43,825 bases of DNA from positions 1-43,825 of the forward strand of contig JAKIUE010000005.1 of assembly GCA_021647715.1 (NCBI GenBank), read 5' to 3'. Position 1 is the stretch's first letter; every line of letters begins with the position of its first letter. The DNA comes from Sulfurovum sp. GTDB taxonomy: Bacteria; Campylobacterota; Campylobacteria; Campylobacterales; Sulfurovaceae. Under the pieces are notes generated by a model that was not told the DNA's origin, did no database searches, and saw only the letters and a list, made by a program, of their open reading frames with translations. Both the position numbers and the translations under genes were made by a program. This document shows, in pieces, positions 2,093-12,151 of the stretch.

Positions 2093-2169
2093 AGATATTT
2101 CCTTACTTACAATACAAATTAATATAACACATCAATGATATGTAACCGACAAACCAAATTTACTTTACG

Positions 2170-2251
2170 TAACCCAGCCGTCTGTCTTTATAAGTAAAGA
2201 AGACCTGTAAGCTTTCTGTCCTATTCTCGCAAATAGTTTAGCTGTAGATTA
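2170..2251 (-). promoter_or_regulatory. GEMM-like (cyclic-di-GMP-I class) riboswitch candidate, copy A
   Basis: Read on the minus strand, this 82-nt leader has closing stem UAAUC/GGUUA, a 6-bp hairpin CUAUUU/GAAUAG capped by a GCGA (GNRA) tetraloop, the segment GGACAGAAAGC (GEMM consensus is close to GGACGCAAAGC), a second stem GUCUU/AAGAC, then GACGGCUGGGUUACG (GEMM consensus AGCCGGGUUACCG). It lies 77 nt before the start of the 1-2092 hydrolase gene. Compared with copy B the changes keep pairing or the GNRA loop. No U-tract terminator follows, so control may be translational. The ligand (c-di-GMP or cGAMP) cannot be told from this. Confidence 0.7.
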
Positions 2252-2252
2252 G

Positions 2253-2288: not shown

Positions 2289-5200
2289 TTATTCTTGATT
2301 AGCATCACATATTGTGATAACAATCCTTTCTGAAGACCCCATTGTAACTTCATACCCTTCTAAATATAGAGGAAGAGTTTCATCTGTAGTATCTATATAT
2401 GTATAAAAAAACAATCTTTTATTTGCTGGCCAAGGATATAGACTGGTTTGTATACTTACAAACCAAGCTCTATATGTTTTACCTTCCCAGTCCCAAGTAT
2501 TTCTATATAAGTAATATTGATTACCATCAGTAATATTTTTTCTTTTATATCTATCTGTTCCATCTGTTTTACCATCTTTTATATATTCACCAGAAAATGC
2601 AGGAGCACTATTTAATGTAAGGACTAAACAATCATAATCTTTGGGTGTTTGTCTTTTAGAAGTGATTACCGTTCTTTTTTTACTTACACTCTTTCTAGGA
2701 ACGTCTTTTGCACTAACGTTGTATTCAATATATAATTTTGCTGATTTAGATATATCTTTTTCATAAGACTGTATGGCTCTCCATTTTTTCCCTGAGTTAT
2801 AATGAAAAATAAAGGCTAAATTATTGCCACTTCTCCATCCTCTTCTATTTACAACTTCTTGCACAAGACTTTTTAATTCAGGTGTATTATAGCTCTCGCC
2901 GCTTCTATTCACATCTGGTGTTTTAAAGAAGACTCTATTTTGTGTTTTTTCTCTATTTGAGATATTTTTTAATCTAGATTTAAAAGTATTTGCATTATCA
3001 GAAGCTTCGGCATAAATATTATATGCAGGATTATATTTTCCTCCATTATTATTCCATCTTGAAGTCATTGTAATATAGGCATTCGTTATCACCGAATTCT
3101 GTGGTATATTAAGATTCTGAAATCTTAATCCTACATAAGGAGCACTTCTATCAATCATTATGTACTGATTGTTATCAGATCTTTTAGTATAAACCCTTTT
3201 ATACCGATTTTCATATGCGTCATCACTACCTTGTAAAATATGCATATCAACTTTTATAGTAGCTGAAGTTGGAAAAGTTATTTCTTTATCCACATAATTC
3301 TTTTTTATTTCTTCTTTGCTCAAAATAGAATCATATATAGTTACATTATCTATACTGCCATTAAAATTATAATCATAAAATTCATCTATCACTTCTTCAT
3401 AGCTGCCTATATATAATTTAGATGCACTTAATCTTGCTGGATTACTCGTATATGCATTTATTTGTTTACCATTTAAATAGGCATATACTTTATTGTTTAG
3501 TGCATCGTTTACAACAACAATGTGATTCCAACTGTTTATCTTAAGAGGTGACACTTGCTTATGTGACGATTCACCTGGAAGTTGTATACGCAGTTGATTA
3601 TCCTTCCTTCCTATCCAAAGGTTTCCATAACGTAAAGCTACTTCAGTGTATTTTGATGTGCTACCTTTTGGCTTCATCCATAATTCAAAACTATAATTCA
3701 TTGATGCATGAAAGCTCCTAGTTATGTTTGAAATTAGAACGTGTTTACCCTTAAATTCCCTGGCTTTATCTATTTGACCGGTAACCTGAGATGGACATTC
3801 ATCCTCATTACATACTGCATCTACACTCCCCTTTGAATCGATGAATGGAGAAGCTATTTCATCAAGACTCCATTTATGTTGAGCCACAGTTTCCAAGCTA
3901 GTATCTACCGTAAAAGGTGACACAGTAAGTATATTAGATATATTAGAGTTTTTATCAATTATTTGTATTTTACAATTACTATATGTACCATCAGCTAACT
4001 GATTAAAGGTAATCATATTATTTCCTCTAATCGCATTGTATATATTTGATTTACATACACCTAAATATTTAATAGTTCCTTTTTTACTACTATTAAAACT
4101 ATAGTAAGGAGTCATTTTATTTGTTGGGCTTTTAATAGCACTAACTTCTTCAATGAGTGGTGCTAAATTATCAATACCAGATTGTTTTTTATACTCTGCT
4201 AAAATTTCTACCGTTGTCAATCTTGAACGATAGATAGATATATGATCTAATTTACCTCTAAAATTGTAACTATCATAAAAACTACCAATTGTATCTATTG
4301 TATTTTTTAATTCAACTACTTCAGTATTATATTCACTATCTAATCTGCCATTAATATAGAGTCTCACTTTTTTCTGTTTTACATCTTTAACTAAGGCAAT
4401 ATATATCCAAGTATTTAAAGCTATCTCTTTTCTACTAGCTTGGTTAAAAGGGCCTCCAGGTATTTCAAATTTTATTTTATTATTTTTAGCACCAATCCAA
4501 AGATGTTTTTTTGTGCTATTTCCACCTCCTAATGCTACATGGTTTTGTGAAATATCATCTGTAATATTCATCCACAACGCAATGGTATAACTATCCTTTT
4601 TTGAAAAATTTAAAGCATTTGTTGAACTAATAGATAGTTTATTCGTTCCATCAAAACTAAGTCCATTACCCACTTGTCCATTCTCCACACTAGGACATTC
4701 TCCTGCACTACAAATCGCTTTTATCTTTCCTATAGTGTCTGTATAAGGAGAACTACTCTCTTCAAAGTCCCATAAGTTCTGAGGTATTCTATGTTTTTTT
4801 GTGCTAAGGTACCCAGAATTAACCATTGAATCATACCAGTTATGTGCTATTTTAAGATAGCCATTTTTATTGGGATGGTAGTCTGCTTTTTTATCTTTTT
4901 GATGAAAAGGTTGCATATCATAAGGTAATCCTGTTGGATTATTGGTAAGTCCAGAATATATATTTACCATTTCAATACTTTCATTATATAAATGTACATC
5001 AACCATAGATTCAAGTTTACTATTATATTCATCGGACCACTTGGCTAAGAAAACTTTTGCATTTGGATTAATTATAAATATTTTGTCTAATATACTTTTC
5101 ATATTATGAATACTTTTATTGATATTTATACCGATATCATTGGTTCCAATTTGCAATAAAATAATATCTGCTGATTTAAGATTTGAACTAATTTTCATAA

Positions 5201-5555
5201 GTAATTGAGCTGTGTTGAATCCACCATACCCTTCATGATCGGTATCAAAATTAGGTGTGTAATTTGCATAACTACTTCCAGAACTTCTTGAGCCAACATA
5301 GTCAATCTCATATCCATCTGCTTTTAGTAAGTCCCACAATCTTCCTCTGTACCCTATACGATCTTTGACTTTAGTCAGATTTATCTGACCATTTATTTTA
5401 GGATATTCACTTATGTTTTTATCAGGATTTTGTGGTATTTCGGATATACCTTCTGTAATAGAGTCACCTAAAGCCATAATCCGAATAGGTGCTGCAGAGA
5501 GTGTAAGCGATAAAAGCATAGTCATAACACTATAATAAAATAATTTTTTAAACAT
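2289..5555 (-). CDS. Secreted SGNH/GDSL hydrolase with two LamG domains
   Basis: 1088-aa paralogue of the gene at 1-2092. Signal peptide at residues 1-21. SGNH hydrolase at about 24-250 with Ser32 (GDS), block II Gly109/111, Asn139 (GTND), Asp225 and His227, so a full catalytic set. Then LamG-type concanavalin-like domain 1 (about 261-455), an Ig-like linker domain (about 463-552), LamG 2 (about 559-755), a DNRLRE-like sandwich (about 767-945) and the unnamed C-terminal module (about 976-1085) shared with the paralogue. Residues 948-970 match the last strand of the paralogue's DUF5011 domain, as if the rest of that domain was deleted. Probably an exported carbohydrate-binding esterase; the substrate is unknown. 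The AAGGA site and GEMM-like leader upstream fix the start. Confidence 0.88.
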   Translation of the reverse strand: MFKKLFYYSVMTMLLSLTLSAAPIRIMALGDSITEGISEIPQNPDKNISEYPKINGQINLTKVKDRIGYRGRLWDLLKADGYEIDYVGSRSSGSSYANYTPNFDTDHEGYGGFNTAQLLMKISSNLKSADIILLQIGTNDIGININKSIHNMKSILDKIFIINPNAKVFLAKWSDEYNSKLESMVDVHLYNESIEMVNIYSGLTNNPTGLPYDMQPFHQKDKKADYHPNKNGYLKIAHNWYDSMVNSGYLSTKKHRIPQNLWDFEESSSPYTDTIGKIKAICSAGECPSVENGQVGNGLSFDGTNKLSISSTNALNFSKKDSYTIALWMNITDDISQNHVALGGGNSTKKHLWIGAKNNKIKFEIPGGPFNQASRKEIALNTWIYIALVKDVKQKKVRLYINGRLDSEYNTEVVELKNTIDTIGSFYDSYNFRGKLDHISIYRSRLTTVEILAEYKKQSGIDNLAPLIEEVSAIKSPTNKMTPYYSFNSSKKGTIKYLGVCKSNIYNAIRGNNMITFNQLADGTYSNCKIQIIDKNSNISNILTVSPFTVDTSLETVAQHKWSLDEIASPFIDSKGSVDAVCNEDECPSQVTGQIDKAREFKGKHVLISNITRSFHASMNYSFELWMKPKGSTSKYTEVALRYGNLWIGRKDNQLRIQLPGESSHKQVSPLKINSWNHIVVVNDALNNKVYAYLNGKQINAYTSNPARLSASKLYIGSYEEVIDEFYDYNFNGSIDNVTIYDSILSKEEIKKNYVDKEITFPTSATIKVDMHILQGSDDAYENRYKRVYTKRSDNNQYIMIDRSAPYVGLRFQNLNIPQNSVITNAYITMTSRWNNNGGKYNPAYNIYAEASDNANTFKSRLKNISNREKTQNRVFFKTPDVNRSGESYNTPELKSLVQEVVNRRGWRSGNNLAFIFHYNSGKKWRAIQSYEKDISKSAKLYIEYNVSAKDVPRKSVSKKRTVITSKRQTPKDYDCLVLTLNSAPAFSGEYIKDGKTDGTDRYKRKNITDGNQYYLYRNTWDWEGKTYRAWFVSIQTSLYPWPANKRLFFYTYIDTTDETLPLYLEGYEVTMGSSERIVITICDANQE

Positions 5556-5627
5556 ATATTTCCTTACTTACCATACCTAATTACAAATATTATTAATGTG
5601 TAACTGACAAACCAAATTTACTTTACG

Positions 5628-5709
5628 TAACCCAGCCGTCTGTCTTTAAAAGTAAAGAAGACCTGTAAGCTTTCTGCCCTATTTTCACAAATAGTTTAGC
5701 TGTAGGTTA
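5628..5709 (-). promoter_or_regulatory. GEMM-like (cyclic-di-GMP-I class) riboswitch candidate, copy B
   Basis: 82-nt leader of the 1088-aa hydrolase gene. Closing stem UAACC/GGUUA, hairpin CUAUUU/AAAUAG with a GUGA tetraloop, GGGCAGAAAGC, stem GUCUU/AAGAC, and GACGGCUGGGUUACG. Against copy A the closing stem changes U-G to C-G and the tetraloop GCGA to GUGA, both structure-preserving. It ends 72 nt before the ATG. The layout (GNRA hairpin, AAAGC, second hairpin, GGGUUAC) is that of GEMM RNAs, which often control secreted chitinases, adhesins and glycan-binding proteins. Confidence 0.72.
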
Positions 5710-5710
5710 T

Positions 5711-5823: not shown

Positions 5824-6921
5824 ATGAAAAGAAGAGATTTTTTAACTACTAGTGCACTTGTTGCTACGAGTCTCACAGTCAAGGGATGTCATAGAACAGA
5901 AAAAAAGAACAAAAATAGCTCAATCAATGCTTCAACAGTCAATAAAGTTACACTAAAACTTGCCACTTCATGGCCTGCACATTTTCCTATTATGGGTACT
6001 GGTGTTGACAACTTTGCTAAACGATGTTTCGAACTCAGTGGTGGCTCACTTGAAATAAAAATATACCCAAAAAATATTTTAGTTCCAGCTCTTCAAGTAT
6101 TTGATGCTACTTCTGCAGCACAAATTGATGCATTTCATTCTGGCGTATACTATTGGAAAGGTAAAAATCCTGCATTTAGTATTTTTGGAGGAATGCCTTT
6201 GGGTCTCACTTCAGAAGAGATGATTACATGGATGAAGTTTGGTGGGGGCTATGAACTTTGGCGCGAACTCTATGATAAGTTTAACCTCTACCCGCTTATA
6301 GGCGGAACTACAGGACCGCAAATGGGTGGATGGTTTAAAACACCGATCAATACACTTGATGATCTTAAAGGTCTAAAAATGCGTATTCCTGGACTGGGGG
6401 GAGAAGTCATGAAAAAACTAGGTGTAAATCCGGTTCTTCTTCCTGCGGGAGAGATATATACATCACTTGAACGCGGTACCATAGATGCAACAGAATGGGT
6501 AGGACCTGCACTTGATAGTATGATGGGATTTTCTAAAGCAGCTGACTATTACTATACAGGATGGCATGAACCTGGTAGTATATTAGAGATTACATTCAAC
6601 AAAGCACGTTGGGAAAAACTTAGTGATGTACACAAAGCTATTATAACATCTGCTAGTGAGGAGATGACCGGGAACATGCTCCAAGAATTTAGATACAAAA
6701 ATGCCAAAGCCTTAAAAGAACTTCCCAAAAATGTACAGATAAAGACTTTTCCTAACGATATGATGGATGAAGCGAAAGTAGCACTAAGTGAAGTATTGAG
6801 AGAAGAGAGTAAAAAAAGTGAAGATTTTAAACGTGTTTTAAAAAGTTATGAATCCTTTTATAGACTTAATAAAATGTATGATGATATTAGTACTAGAAAC
6901 TTTTTAAATATTAGAAGTTAA
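5824..6921 (+). CDS. TRAP transporter substrate-binding lipoprotein (DctP/TakP-like)
   Basis: 365 aa. Twin-arginine signal MKRRDFL at the N-terminus with a lipobox ending at Cys22 (TVKGC), so it is probably exported folded by TAT and lipid-anchored. The body is a DctP-family solute receptor; the stretch KMRIPG plus LPAGEIYTSLERGTIDATEW matches the TakP (2-oxo acid binding) subgroup, where the Arg binds the substrate carboxylate. Such proteins feed a DctQ-DctM permease, but neither gene is nearby. It is a single gene with its own promoter, divergent from the riboswitch-controlled hydrolases. The ligand is an inference. Confidence 0.88.
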   Translation: MKRRDFLTTSALVATSLTVKGCHRTEKKNKNSSINASTVNKVTLKLATSWPAHFPIMGTGVDNFAKRCFELSGGSLEIKIYPKNILVPALQVFDATSAAQIDAFHSGVYYWKGKNPAFSIFGGMPLGLTSEEMITWMKFGGGYELWRELYDKFNLYPLIGGTTGPQMGGWFKTPINTLDDLKGLKMRIPGLGGEVMKKLGVNPVLLPAGEIYTSLERGTIDATEWVGPALDSMMGFSKAADYYYTGWHEPGSILEITFNKARWEKLSDVHKAIITSASEEMTGNMLQEFRYKNAKALKELPKNVQIKTFPNDMMDEAKVALSEVLREESKKSEDFKRVLKSYESFYRLNKMYDDISTRNFLNIRS

Positions 6922-7624: not shown

Positions 7625-9160
7625 TTAATCTTCATACCTATATTCATTCATAATTAATGATTCATATCCATCCGGATATATTTCGTCTACGTTTATTACA
7701 TCTGTATCTCTAATTATCCATTTTTCAGAAGGTTCTTGAGTCTCTAATATCAGAGTAATATCTGGGGTATCTGGTCTCGTTGTTTTAAGTTCTGTTAATG
7801 TGATATATTTAGGATCTACACCATTTAATAATAGCCATTCCATCGCTGTCAAGGCAAAGTCTTCACGGTCACCCATTGCATGATCTGCATCCATAATTGT
7901 CCAGTAATCAACACTATCATATATATCACTATCATCTACATACGTAAAGGTTGATAAAAATACTTTCAATGCTTCTAAAAATTCTGTGCTTCCACCTTTT
8001 ACCTTTTGATGTCCTATGCCAAAACGTGTACCTCTAAGTAAGATAGATGTATTAACACTTGTATGGTTATTTTCTAACAATATAGCCATACCTCTATCTA
8101 AAACTGTTTTATCTGCGATGTATTTTTTATATTGAATAAGTTTTAAACTTTTAGTGGAATTGAAGTCAGGGAGTATAAGACTTGTAGATGCATATCTTTC
8201 TTCATAATACTTGTTAGAAAATTTTGCCATAACAAATGTTTTTGTCACATGTAAATGTGTCTTAATCCAAGTTTTATTATCATCTATTGTTAAATGTGTT
8301 GGATCCATATACCAAAGGCCCTTTAGGTAATATGATATTGTACATTTTAGACCCTCTTCCCCATGAACAATGCATGTCTTGATTGATTTTTCGCACTTCA
8401 TCTGAGTATTATTATCAAAGTAACAATTATGCTGTGCTTCTTTAGAGTCAGAAGGAAAAACACTTTGGCTATTGTCAAAAACAACATAATTATTATTATG
8501 GTTAAGTACACCTGAATTATTACTAGCATTACTGTCACTAGCAGTAATAGCAGACCCAGTCATATAACCTGGATAAACTGTAGTGCTATCACTTAGTTTT
8601 TCATTTGGTTCTATATTCTCTTTTTCAAGGTCTATATCATCTTGCTTATCTATTATATTTTCATCCTTGTATCCACTTGTAGTTCTCATTACTTTATCAT
8701 TATGATTTCTATCATCCTTTGCAGATACTCTTGCCCTAGTATAACTTGTTGATTTATTATGATAATTTACACGTCTATCTTCAGATACACCTATACTCCT
8801 ATAAATATTATCATTACTTGCCACTCTATCCATAACATAAGGCATGCCATTTTCTGCTACACGCCTACTAAAATCTTCATCGGCTTTCATCATTGCTTTT
8901 GCATAGAGTATTTCATCTATTTCAATATCTGTGCTATTATTTTCAATTATACTAGACTTTTTACCTGCATTAAATCTAAAAGTATCCTGTTTAGAATTAT
9001 CCGTTTTATCTTCAATTATATTTTTTGAGTGTGTCCTTTCATCTATAATTAGATTATCATTAAATGCTTCTTTATTCATAGTAAATATTGAAAATCCTGC
9101 TATCGCAGCAATAAGTAAAAATGTTTTAGATTTAAATAGTTTATATACCCAAGATATCAT
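7625..9160 (-). CDS. Membrane-anchored protein with degenerate transglutaminase-like domain
   Basis: 511 aa. One N-terminal membrane segment (about 12-28), then a long polar Asn/Asp/Ser-rich region (about 30-240) of low complexity, a Cys-containing segment (Cys246, 256, 263, 273), and a C-terminal domain. Residues 418-457 (DYW...MGDREDFAL...NGV) align by eye with the BTLCP/LapG transglutaminase-like signature DYW...GDCEDFAL. The catalytic Cys is Arg432 (codon CGT at 7867-7865, one transition from TGT) and the usual His before a V-L strand is Asp467. It would be a periplasmic pseudoenzyme if this reading is right. AGGAAG lies before the ATG. No other family recognised. Confidence 0.6.
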   Translation of the reverse strand: MISWVYKLFKSKTFLLIAAIAGFSIFTMNKEAFNDNLIIDERTHSKNIIEDKTDNSKQDTFRFNAGKKSSIIENNSTDIEIDEILYAKAMMKADEDFSRRVAENGMPYVMDRVASNDNIYRSIGVSEDRRVNYHNKSTSYTRARVSAKDDRNHNDKVMRTTSGYKDENIIDKQDDIDLEKENIEPNEKLSDSTTVYPGYMTGSAITASDSNASNNSGVLNHNNNYVVFDNSQSVFPSDSKEAQHNCYFDNNTQMKCEKSIKTCIVHGEEGLKCTISYYLKGLWYMDPTHLTIDDNKTWIKTHLHVTKTFVMAKFSNKYYEERYASTSLILPDFNSTKSLKLIQYKKYIADKTVLDRGMAILLENNHTSVNTSILLRGTRFGIGHQKVKGGSTEFLEALKVFLSTFTYVDDSDIYDSVDYWTIMDADHAMGDREDFALTAMEWLLLNGVDPKYITLTELKTTRPDTPDITLILETQEPSEKWIIRDTDVINVDEIYPDGYESLIMNEYRYED

Positions 9161-10155: not shown

Positions 10156-10704
10156 ATGAATGGTGTGAGAATTGCAGAAGAAAAGATTGCCAAGTGTAAA
10201 GCAGAGAAAATAGACTACTTAAATATCAGCGATCTTGAACTAGATGTCCTACCCTCATCCATCGGTGAACTAACTTGGCTAGGTGCACTTTCAGTATCAC
10301 GCAACAACCTAAGTAACATTGATGCATTAGCTCCACTCACAAACCTACATAAACTTGCTTTCTCCAACAATGAAATTGAAAACATAGCTGTACTTAAAAA
10401 ACTATCAAAAATACGACATATTTTTATGAAACACAATAAATTGAGTGACATATCTGTACTAGAAACACTCAAAAAACTTAAAAAAATAGAAGCAAATCAT
10501 AACCTCATAACAAATATCGAGAGTATTACTACACTGAAGAACCTAGTATTTTTAGACCTTGCCCATAACCGCATAGAAAATCTAAAACCCATTAGCAACA
10601 TAAAGTCCTTAGTATGGCTCTGTATTGAGAACAATACCACAAAAGAAGAAGTGCATCAAACATTAAAAGCTTCTTTAGATAAATTAGCACACTTTACCTA
10701 CTAG
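10156..10704 (+). CDS. Leucine-rich-repeat protein (internalin-type repeats)
   Basis: 182 aa, no signal peptide, so cytoplasmic. After a short N-terminal cap, about six 22-residue repeats of the LxxLxxLxLxxNxIxxI type (for example LVFLDLAHNRIENLKPISNI) fill residues 30-160. Such repeats form a curved solenoid that binds a protein partner; the partner is unknown. GGAGAG sits about 8 nt before the ATG. Confidence 0.82.
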   Translation: MNGVRIAEEKIAKCKAEKIDYLNISDLELDVLPSSIGELTWLGALSVSRNNLSNIDALAPLTNLHKLAFSNNEIENIAVLKKLSKIRHIFMKHNKLSDISVLETLKKLKKIEANHNLITNIESITTLKNLVFLDLAHNRIENLKPISNIKSLVWLCIENNTTKEEVHQTLKASLDKLAHFTY

Positions 10705-11224: not shown

Positions 11225-12151
11225 CTAATATTTCTTGTTCTTATATACCAACACATCATCTTCGCTCAAATTATCTAACAGCGAAGACAGGTCTTTACTA
11301 GATAACAGTACCACTTCCTTCTCTTTTAAGGTTTCTACTTCTGGAGTAAATCCATTTTTAGAAAAGAGCACATAGTCAGCTATCTCTAGTTCTGCTTTTG
11401 TACATTTTTCTATAAGGGTCTGCATCATGTTACTCTTTGCAGGTTCTTTAGAGTATTTACATGCTCCTGCTATCATAACACCTGACTTTCTCTTAGCTAG
11501 TATATCTATCTCTAGTTTCTTATCGTAGTAGCTACCTATTTTGACTATGGGGTCACTTTCACATTTAGCGTTAAATGTTTCTTTGACCAACTCCAAGAGT
11601 AAAAGGTTAGAAAGTAAAATAGAAAAGTTTTCTCTTGTTTTGTGCCACTTCTTAGCAAACTCATCATAGTCACCCTCCATGATACTTTGATAGTTCGGAG
11701 AAATCATAGCAAACCAAAAACGCATAAAAGGCAAGTCAAACAAAATCCTGTCTGATTTACTACTACCATCATGTAAAGGTTTTTCCACAGACAAATCAAA
11801 CTTGATTAGACTTTTACTAACCAAATAGTCTATGGCTTCTTCGCCCTTGTCTTTACCTACCTTGGCTTTTTTGAACACATCATTTTCATAGTTCACACCC
11901 AAAGCGATGATGCTTAGCATCATATGGTACAATCCATTGTTGTGGGTGTAGCGTGTCATGCTTTCATGCAATGCCTCGTAGTTAGCAAGTATTTTCTCTT
12001 CTATGAGGGTAGCCACACGTTGTGAGACATCCACATCCCAGCCCGTACCACCAAAAACGGTAAAGTACTCCAATGCCGTGTCAAAATCTTTGATGTTGTT
12101 TTGGTAAGCAAAAGAGCGAAAGTGTTGTAGTAGTGTGGGATGTTTTGCCAT
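11225..12151 (-). CDS. DUF234-type protein lacking the ATPase domain, paralogue 1
   Basis: 308 aa. It corresponds to the C-terminal part of archaeal-type ATPases of the DUF234 family: a winged-helix-like N-terminus, FMRFWFAMISP, then a PD-(D/E)XK-like core (LEIDILAKRKSG...AGACK). The usual catalytic Glu of the E-x-K motif is Ala here, so nuclease activity is doubtful. No P-loop. A paralogue at 23078-24001 on the other strand begins with the same KHPT-LQ-FRSF and ends NKKY. Function unknown. Confidence 0.75.
   Translation of the reverse strand: MAKHPTLLQHFRSFAYQNNIKDFDTALEYFTVFGGTGWDVDVSQRVATLIEEKILANYEALHESMTRYTHNNGLYHMMLSIIALGVNYENDVFKKAKVGKDKGEEAIDYLVSKSLIKFDLSVEKPLHDGSSKSDRILFDLPFMRFWFAMISPNYQSIMEGDYDEFAKKWHKTRENFSILLSNLLLLELVKETFNAKCESDPIVKIGSYYDKKLEIDILAKRKSGVMIAGACKYSKEPAKSNMMQTLIEKCTKAELEIADYVLFSKNGFTPEVETLKEKEVVLLSSKDLSSLLDNLSEDDVLVYKNKKY

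Follow-up and report, generated by a model that had tools for sequence, protein, structure and literature searches.

LapG-type proteases are known for releasing biofilm adhesins by cleaving them. C135 was identified as the nucleophile of LapG, and the C135A variant was found to be dead (PMC3032545). In P. fluorescens LapG, calcium is bound next to the active site, with D111 among its ligands (PMC4359373). Cleavage by DvhG of D. vulgaris is abolished in the variants C317A and D316A/E318A; D316 and E318 flank C317 and form a predicted calcium site that is required for activity (PMC13090378). DvhG was recovered mostly with membranes in fractionation; since signal peptides are present in most of its orthologues, this anchoring could be peculiar to the strain studied (PMC13090378). 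HvyA of Caulobacter is a BTLCP member outside the Lap circuit for which C192S, C192A, H226Q, H226A, and D241A were reported to be non-functional and D241N to be functional (PMC4241560). Inactive papain-like domains are also described as scaffolds, menin and Rad4 being among the examples reviewed (PMC10318531). In the open-access literature searched, no text read named an inactive LapG, which speaks only weakly for its absence from print, and no paper on LapG in Sulfurovum was found.

The gene under study (hereafter the target) is located in a 43,825-nucleotide stretch of Sulfurovum sp. DNA that was analyzed as a whole (hereafter the window). The host genome (G000) has 2.15 Mb and is 97.5% complete. 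The target is an unbroken open reading frame of 511 codons, and its product consists, from the N-terminus on, of a hydrophobic segment, a linker, a region with four cysteines, and a C-terminal domain (Table 1). Over 19 residues the N-terminal segment has a hydropathy of 1.63, as compared to 0.72 for the next best segment of the protein, and the membrane tether proposed in the preliminary description of this DNA is a prediction from hydropathy alone. The four cysteines are the only ones of the protein and are all common to its orthologue; their spacing, C-x9-C-x6-C-x9-C, looks like that of structural disulphides. In the linker, the motif YxGYxTGSAI stands out from its fast-changing surroundings.

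Table 1. Coordinates of the target, its parts and neighbours in the window, and of the Ser/Tyr pseudo-LapG genes found in other Campylobacterales genomes
Feature	Position	Strand	Basis
Coding sequence, predicted membrane-tethered pseudo-BTLCP protein, 511 aa	7625..9160	-	Open reading frame; orthologue in G080/L005 with DctP neighbour kept
Only hydrophobic segment, near the N-terminus (approximately residues 8-26); predicted to be an anchor or a signal left uncleaved	9083..9139	-	Hydropathy alone
Poorly conserved linker, residues 27-186, S/T/N/Q/D/E/K-rich	8603..9082	-	Composition, codon differences
Short conserved linker motif T-x-x-Y-x-G-Y-x-T-G-S-A-I, residues 193-205	8546..8584	-	Invariant alignment columns
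Four-cysteine region, residues 240-340	8141..8443	-	C246, C256, C263, C273
C-terminal pseudo-BTLCP (LapG-like) domain, residues 341-511	7628..8140	-	PF06035, LapG profile matches, AF2 model, fold matches
Asp410, aligned with the calcium ligand Asp111 of P. fluorescens LapG (PMC4359373)	7931..7933	-	Alignment
Best-conserved 30 residues, 429-458	7787..7876	-	27 of 30 identical in orthologue
GDRED, residues 430-434; Arg432 in place of Cys, D431, E433, D434 matching LapG GDCED	7859..7873	-	Alignment, codons
Asp467, in place of the catalytic His; orthologue with Glu	7760..7762	-	MAFFT, hhalign, codons
DctP-type solute-binding protein, conserved neighbour, also adjoining the orthologue	5824..6921	+	Pfam, synteny
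c-di-GMP-I (GEMM) riboswitch before the GDSL/laminin-G gene 2289-5555	5623..5710	-	RNA match
Second c-di-GMP-I riboswitch	2165-2252	-	RNA match
Ser/Tyr pseudo-LapG, G362	L050:8725-9342		
Ser/Tyr pseudo-LapG, G357	L051:8676-9311		
Ser/Tyr pseudo-LapG, G452	L187:9623-10258		
Ser/Tyr pseudo-LapG, G379	L188:9416-10045		

The C-terminal domain had been likened to the BTLCP/LapG family from the sequence. The only relevant Pfam match of the target, PF06035 (Peptidase_C93; 21.5 bits, E 2.2e-4), lies below the curated cut-off of 27, but a LapG HMM, profile searches, and hhalign support the assignment. The HMM, built from 10 canonical Campylobacterales LapGs, scored the target with 25.5 bits and the orthologue with 33.6 bits; the best of 2000 domain shuffles reached 7.0 bits, and the next best of the 137 open frames of 60 or more amino acids in the window reached 5.8 bits. 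Given these distances, the membership of the domain in the LapG family is more than chance. A profile made from the two orthologues retrieved the canonical LapGs of the order with E-values down to 1.9e-9, and its alignment by hhalign with canonical LapGs covered 98 columns (probability 95.7, E 9.5e-9). A wider profile had a single match in the PDB at E up to 5, namely, the LapG 4u65_E (E 0.0055). The orthologue itself matched PF06035 with 26.5 bits by hmmscan and 28.3 bits in a genome search, on either side of the cut-off. NCBIfam NF045674, the LapG equivalog with a cut-off of 320 bits, gave 17.3 bits for the target, and an intact LapG of the genome G095 also remained below it with 194 bits. 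In PHROGs, the target matched a family of phage peptidases (E 3.1e-4) and, more weakly, two families of unknown kind, and a PADLOC search with it returned nothing. A match of residues 14-104 to PAD, at 13.6 bits, was below its cut-off and was dismissed.

The catalytic Cys and His are missing from this domain. The preliminary description had placed Arg432 at the nucleophile position and Asp467 at the His position, and both codons (CGT and GAT) and alignments confirm this; MAFFT and hhalign agree on Asp467, and the third triad position, either D485 (MAFFT) or R484 (hhalign), is uncertain by one residue. Orthologues with an intact Cys-His-Asp triad had been named there as refuting evidence. None was found: the only orthologue, a 531-residue protein of the same genus (G080, L005), has N447 and E482 at these positions, so a point mutant or a sequencing error in the target can be ruled out, and the protein appears as a pseudo-protease and not as a recent mutant. 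The earlier remark that the Arg codon is one base from TGT is misleading, as the orthologue has the Asn codon AAC here, from which a Cys codon would take two base changes. Within residues 341-511 the two proteins have no Cys or His in common, their common histidines being at 134, 244, and 302, and a Cys-His protease site common to both domains is therefore excluded on this alignment. With both the nucleophile and the general base gone, the domain would be unable to cut.

The target has a narrow distribution. Using a full-length profile, it was detected in 2 of the 78 genomes of the genus (G000 and G080), and a third match in the genus (E 0.18, 40 positions, with stops) was considered noise. 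Protein searches found no orthologue in 60 related genomes, in the genome contig collection, where the two-row profile found only the contig of G080, or among viral contigs, plasmids, and phages. When two-row profiles were run against 398 genomes of the order and 249 of the phylum, they detected no other full-length match; four other matches in the latter were LapG-sized frames, and eight of the weak long-frame matches across the order, recognized by eye as enzymes such as citrate synthase and glutamyl-tRNA synthetase, were taken as chance. PF06035 matches were present in 6 of the 175 genomes of the family. Among 80 distinct LapG-like rows, which came from loci returned by searches (mostly the best-scoring ones, the window protein left out) and were limited to proteins of 100-600 amino acids with a W followed within 6-16 residues by D-x-[ED]-D, 74 were C/H/D, 4 were S/Y/D, 1 was the orthologue, and 1 was a misaligned short lipoprotein. 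The host genome also encodes a 183-residue BTLCP-like lipoprotein, as judged by eye, with GDCEDY, a later His, and a PF06035 match below the cut-off (L049:1243-1794, G000:C54). In the viral collection, a short BTLCP-like frame was found on fourteen contigs (L138-L151); it contains GDCED, a motif that the search pattern demanded.

Codon differences between the two orthologues show purifying selection on the C-terminal domain, insofar as one pair can. In residues 341-511, codon positions 1, 2, and 3 differ in 29, 25, and 54% of cases, and in residues 400-460 in 23, 23, and 57%, as compared to 52, 52, and 58% in residues 1-186. The overall identity of 39% increases to 48% across target residues 187-511, and the nucleophile position is among the three changes in the best-conserved 30-mer. 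The neighbouring genes evolve more slowly, with identities of 80% for DctP and 76% for an M18 aminopeptidase. In an alignment of 14 rows, two for the orthologues and 12 for viral-contig BTLCPs (of the 14 found, one truncated and one near copy were left out), the residues D410, D418, G430, D431, E433, D434, and G447 are invariant (alignment positions 71, 79, 91, 92, 94, 95, and 108). D410 aligns with the Asp located 24 residues before the LapG nucleophile, and D431, E433, and D434 match the acids of the LapG motif GDCED, the first two corresponding to the predicted calcium-site pair of DvhG. The target has thus lost its catalytic pair but retained the acids of a putative calcium site.

These data bear on the idea that a protease has lost its substrate and that the gene now drifts without a current function. 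The patchy presence in the genus, the fast divergence, the nearly unconstrained first 186 residues, and the different residues at the triad positions of the two copies would all agree with such a decay. However, both open reading frames are full length and free of stops, third codon positions in residues 341-511 have changed at roughly double the rate of the first two, the stretch around the dead site is the best-conserved part of the protein, and the neighbourhood with DctP and the M18 aminopeptidase has been retained. We consider decay unlikely, although it keeps some weight. A change of chemistry, in which other residues such as the acidic one that replaces the His (Asp467/Glu482) would have taken over catalysis, draws on the acidic nature of this position in both copies; as neither a Cys nor a His is common to the domains, and as the nucleophile position has Arg in the target but Asn in the orthologue, so that no common nucleophile is present at the head of the helix, such a repurposed enzyme is quite improbable. 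It is barely credible that the target is an active protease that uses a cysteine of the four-cysteine region: the four conserved cysteines do belong to the same protein, but they are located approximately 160 or more residues from the motif in a pattern that looks structural, and they would find no common His in the domain.

Of two models, the one of residues 190-511 from a two-row alignment was poor (pLDDT 40.1, pTM 0.38). It is the only model that covers the four-cysteine region, and the lack of any match for this region carries, with such a model, no information on its fold. An AF2 model of residues 340-511 based on the 14-row alignment reached a pLDDT of 64.6 and a pTM of 0.71; its best PDB matches by Foldseek were LapGs (4u65_E, 2.7e-6), and VIA-align superimposed it on LapG 4fgo over 113 residues (Z 10.1, rmsd 3.0), the first non-LapG row having a Z of 7.1. 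The structural comparison with LapG proposed in the preliminary description returned LapG as the best fold match, which is partly circular given the 12 LapG-like rows in the alignment. Because these rows shaped it, the model is consistent with the LapG (transglutaminase-like) fold rather than independent proof of it. Fold rows below LapG, such as CPR-C4, vasohibins, arylamine acetyltransferases, and XPC, were read as the wider fold only. Arg432 and Asp467 might form a salt bridge where active members have their Cys-His pair.

DctP is adjacent to the gene in both genomes, and the M18 aminopeptidase is located upstream on the same strand in both, adjoining the orthologue in L005 and 4.4 kb off in the window. 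The DctP surroundings (about 7-9.5 kb each) were read in 20 of the 66 genomes of the genus with a DctP match, and none of the 20 contained a blastp match to the target. A promoter and terminator scan was uninformative, with 12 promoter-like sites as compared to 13.7 expected, and no terminator. The two GEMM riboswitches that had been noticed near the target are real; they lie 1.9 and 5.4 kb away from it, with two plus-strand genes between the nearer one and the target. The gene at 2289-5555 encodes a 1088-residue protein with GDSL-lipase and laminin-G parts.

The preliminary description had pointed on this basis to c-di-GMP-controlled surface adhesion. In such a reading, the target would be a pseudo-LapG that a LapD-like receptor holds as part of the circuit, and the nearby riboswitches as well as the usual role of LapG homologues in such circuits speak for it. 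The search for a receptor of the LapD type nonetheless gave no LapD_MoxY_N (PF16448) match in G000 or G080, assemblies that are incomplete (97.5 and about 87%). No LssB/LapB-type T1SS transporter exceeded the cut-off in either genome (best score in G000, 251.5 bits as compared to 693.1), G000 had no PF06035 match beyond the target and the short lipoprotein, and no riboswitch was found on the 10.4-kb contig of the orthologue. The proposed link to LapD/LapG-type adhesion control is not supported by these searches, and we give a role of the target in such a circuit little chance. Across the genus, LapD_MoxY_N was detected in 1 of 78 genomes, G095, where it adjoins an intact LapG; this incomplete genome likewise has no LssB/LapB-type transporter.

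The reading that we favour, and consider fairly probable, is that of a membrane-tethered, protease-dead BTLCP domain retained as a binding module. The protein would be periplasmic and tethered to the inner membrane by its single N-terminal helix; the disordered linker and the probably disulphide-bonded four-cysteine region would present the C-terminal domain, in which nucleophile and general base are replaced by Arg and Asp here and by Asn and Glu in the orthologue. Since the calcium-site acids and the helix carrying the dead nucleophile are held, we infer that the domain may have been kept for binding, as a calcium-stabilized module that would hold a putative periplasmic or secreted partner near the membrane. 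Several points count against the binding module: there are only two sequences, so that conservation is that of one pair; the fold match is partly circular; the whole protein has evolved much faster than DctP, as a gene under weak constraint might; and the triad positions differ between the copies, so that the dead state is not fixed to one residue. The target alone is consequently of modest value.

Among known systems, DvhG has a similar layout, with an N-terminal transmembrane helix, a disordered linker of about 180 residues, and a C-terminal BTLCP domain (PMC13090378), the layout of the target being derived from hydropathy and composition. Calcium-site acids are kept in both. In contrast to the target, DvhG has the C-H-D triad and cuts adhesins, and its gene adjoins those for its partner DvhD (dCache, PAS, HD-GYP) and a T1SS adhesin; the target has lost the catalytic pair, has an additional four-cysteine region, and was not seen to have DvhD or adhesin neighbours. 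The LapGs of Pseudomonas and Legionella (4u65, 4fgo) share with it the homologous domain, the best fold match, the D-x-E-D motif, and the Asp111 equivalent, but canonical LapG is a soluble C-H-D protease and the target a 511-residue protein with R and D. HvyA, likewise a BTLCP protein outside the Lap circuit, differs in that it needs its triad (PMC4241560).

A second group of pseudo-LapGs was identified in four Campylobacterales genomes of three genera (Table 1), with the motifs GDSEDF and [AS]YMVL. Like the target, these proteins have a BTLCP domain in which Cys and His are both replaced and the acidic motif is kept; unlike the target, they are LapG-sized, and their genes adjoin those of LapD and an adhesin. 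With a profile made from the G357 and G362 proteins, which score 411 and 393 bits by construction, the search gave 339 and 344 bits for the other two members and 221 bits for the next protein. HvyA is killed by the same kinds of replacement, C192S and, from a screen, H226Y (PMC4241560). In a quick tree that carried a long-branch warning, the Ser/Tyr group forms one branch (SH-aLRT 100) and the target pair has its own supported branch. Since a tree joining the two was not rejected (p-AU 0.394), one and two origins of the dead state are indistinguishable, and no independent origin of the two kinds of pseudo-LapG is claimed.

All four Ser/Tyr pseudo-LapG genes precede a LapD-like gene, and their clusters also contain genes for LapB- and LapC-like proteins and for a large adhesin. 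In G357 and G362, LapD was confirmed by Pfam and LapB exceeded the cut-off of TIGR03375; the LapD, LapB, and LapC of G379 and G452 have identities of 71-83% with their G357 counterparts. The GW in the loop region is kept in all four LapDs. The cleavage consensus of LapG was given as [T/A/P]AAG (PMC13090378). None of the four adhesins beside a Ser/Tyr pseudo-LapG contains [TAP]AAG, based on whole genes in G357, G379, and G452 (8055, 3783, and 4566 aa) and on 883 residues in G362, which has LAAAANAG instead. The site is present in all five adhesins with a readable N-terminal part beside an intact LapG, which all belong to one genus (g20) and are not five independent controls; its AA is at residue 118 or 119 in G155, G266, G233, and G129, and the start is not fixed in G142. 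Eleven other loci with an intact LapG showed no adhesin start and were left out of this count; in one of these, G223, the large open frames examined have no [TAP]AAG. In this small sample, the pattern suggests that the Ser/Tyr lap clusters have lost both cleavage and the site on which it acts.

The Ser/Tyr group is perhaps more interesting than the target itself. That LapG has given rise to non-cutting, calcium-dependent binding proteins in two Campylobacterales settings, one tethered and remote from lap clusters and one in complete lap clusters with adhesins that have lost the site, and that these hold or gate a secreted adhesin or other surface partner by binding rather than release it by cleavage, is a tentative and rather doubtful proposal. 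If the favoured reading is true, a LapG-like domain under selection without its cutting residues would imply that this fold also serves for binding. The Ser/Tyr relatives make such a use directly testable, with a likely partner receptor and adhesin encoded next door.

Further genes in the surroundings of the target include one for a leucine-rich-repeat protein (10156-10704) and one for a 308-residue protein with a DUF234 match only (11225-12151), DUF234-like proteins being encoded near DctP in several relatives. The target is AT-rich, with a GC3 of 0.188 as compared to 0.246 for DctP and 0.337 for the M18 aminopeptidase. The gene at 2289-5555 is similarly low (0.185), and four other nearby genes range from 0.22 to 0.34; the low values of both are as for recently gained or surface-protein genes.
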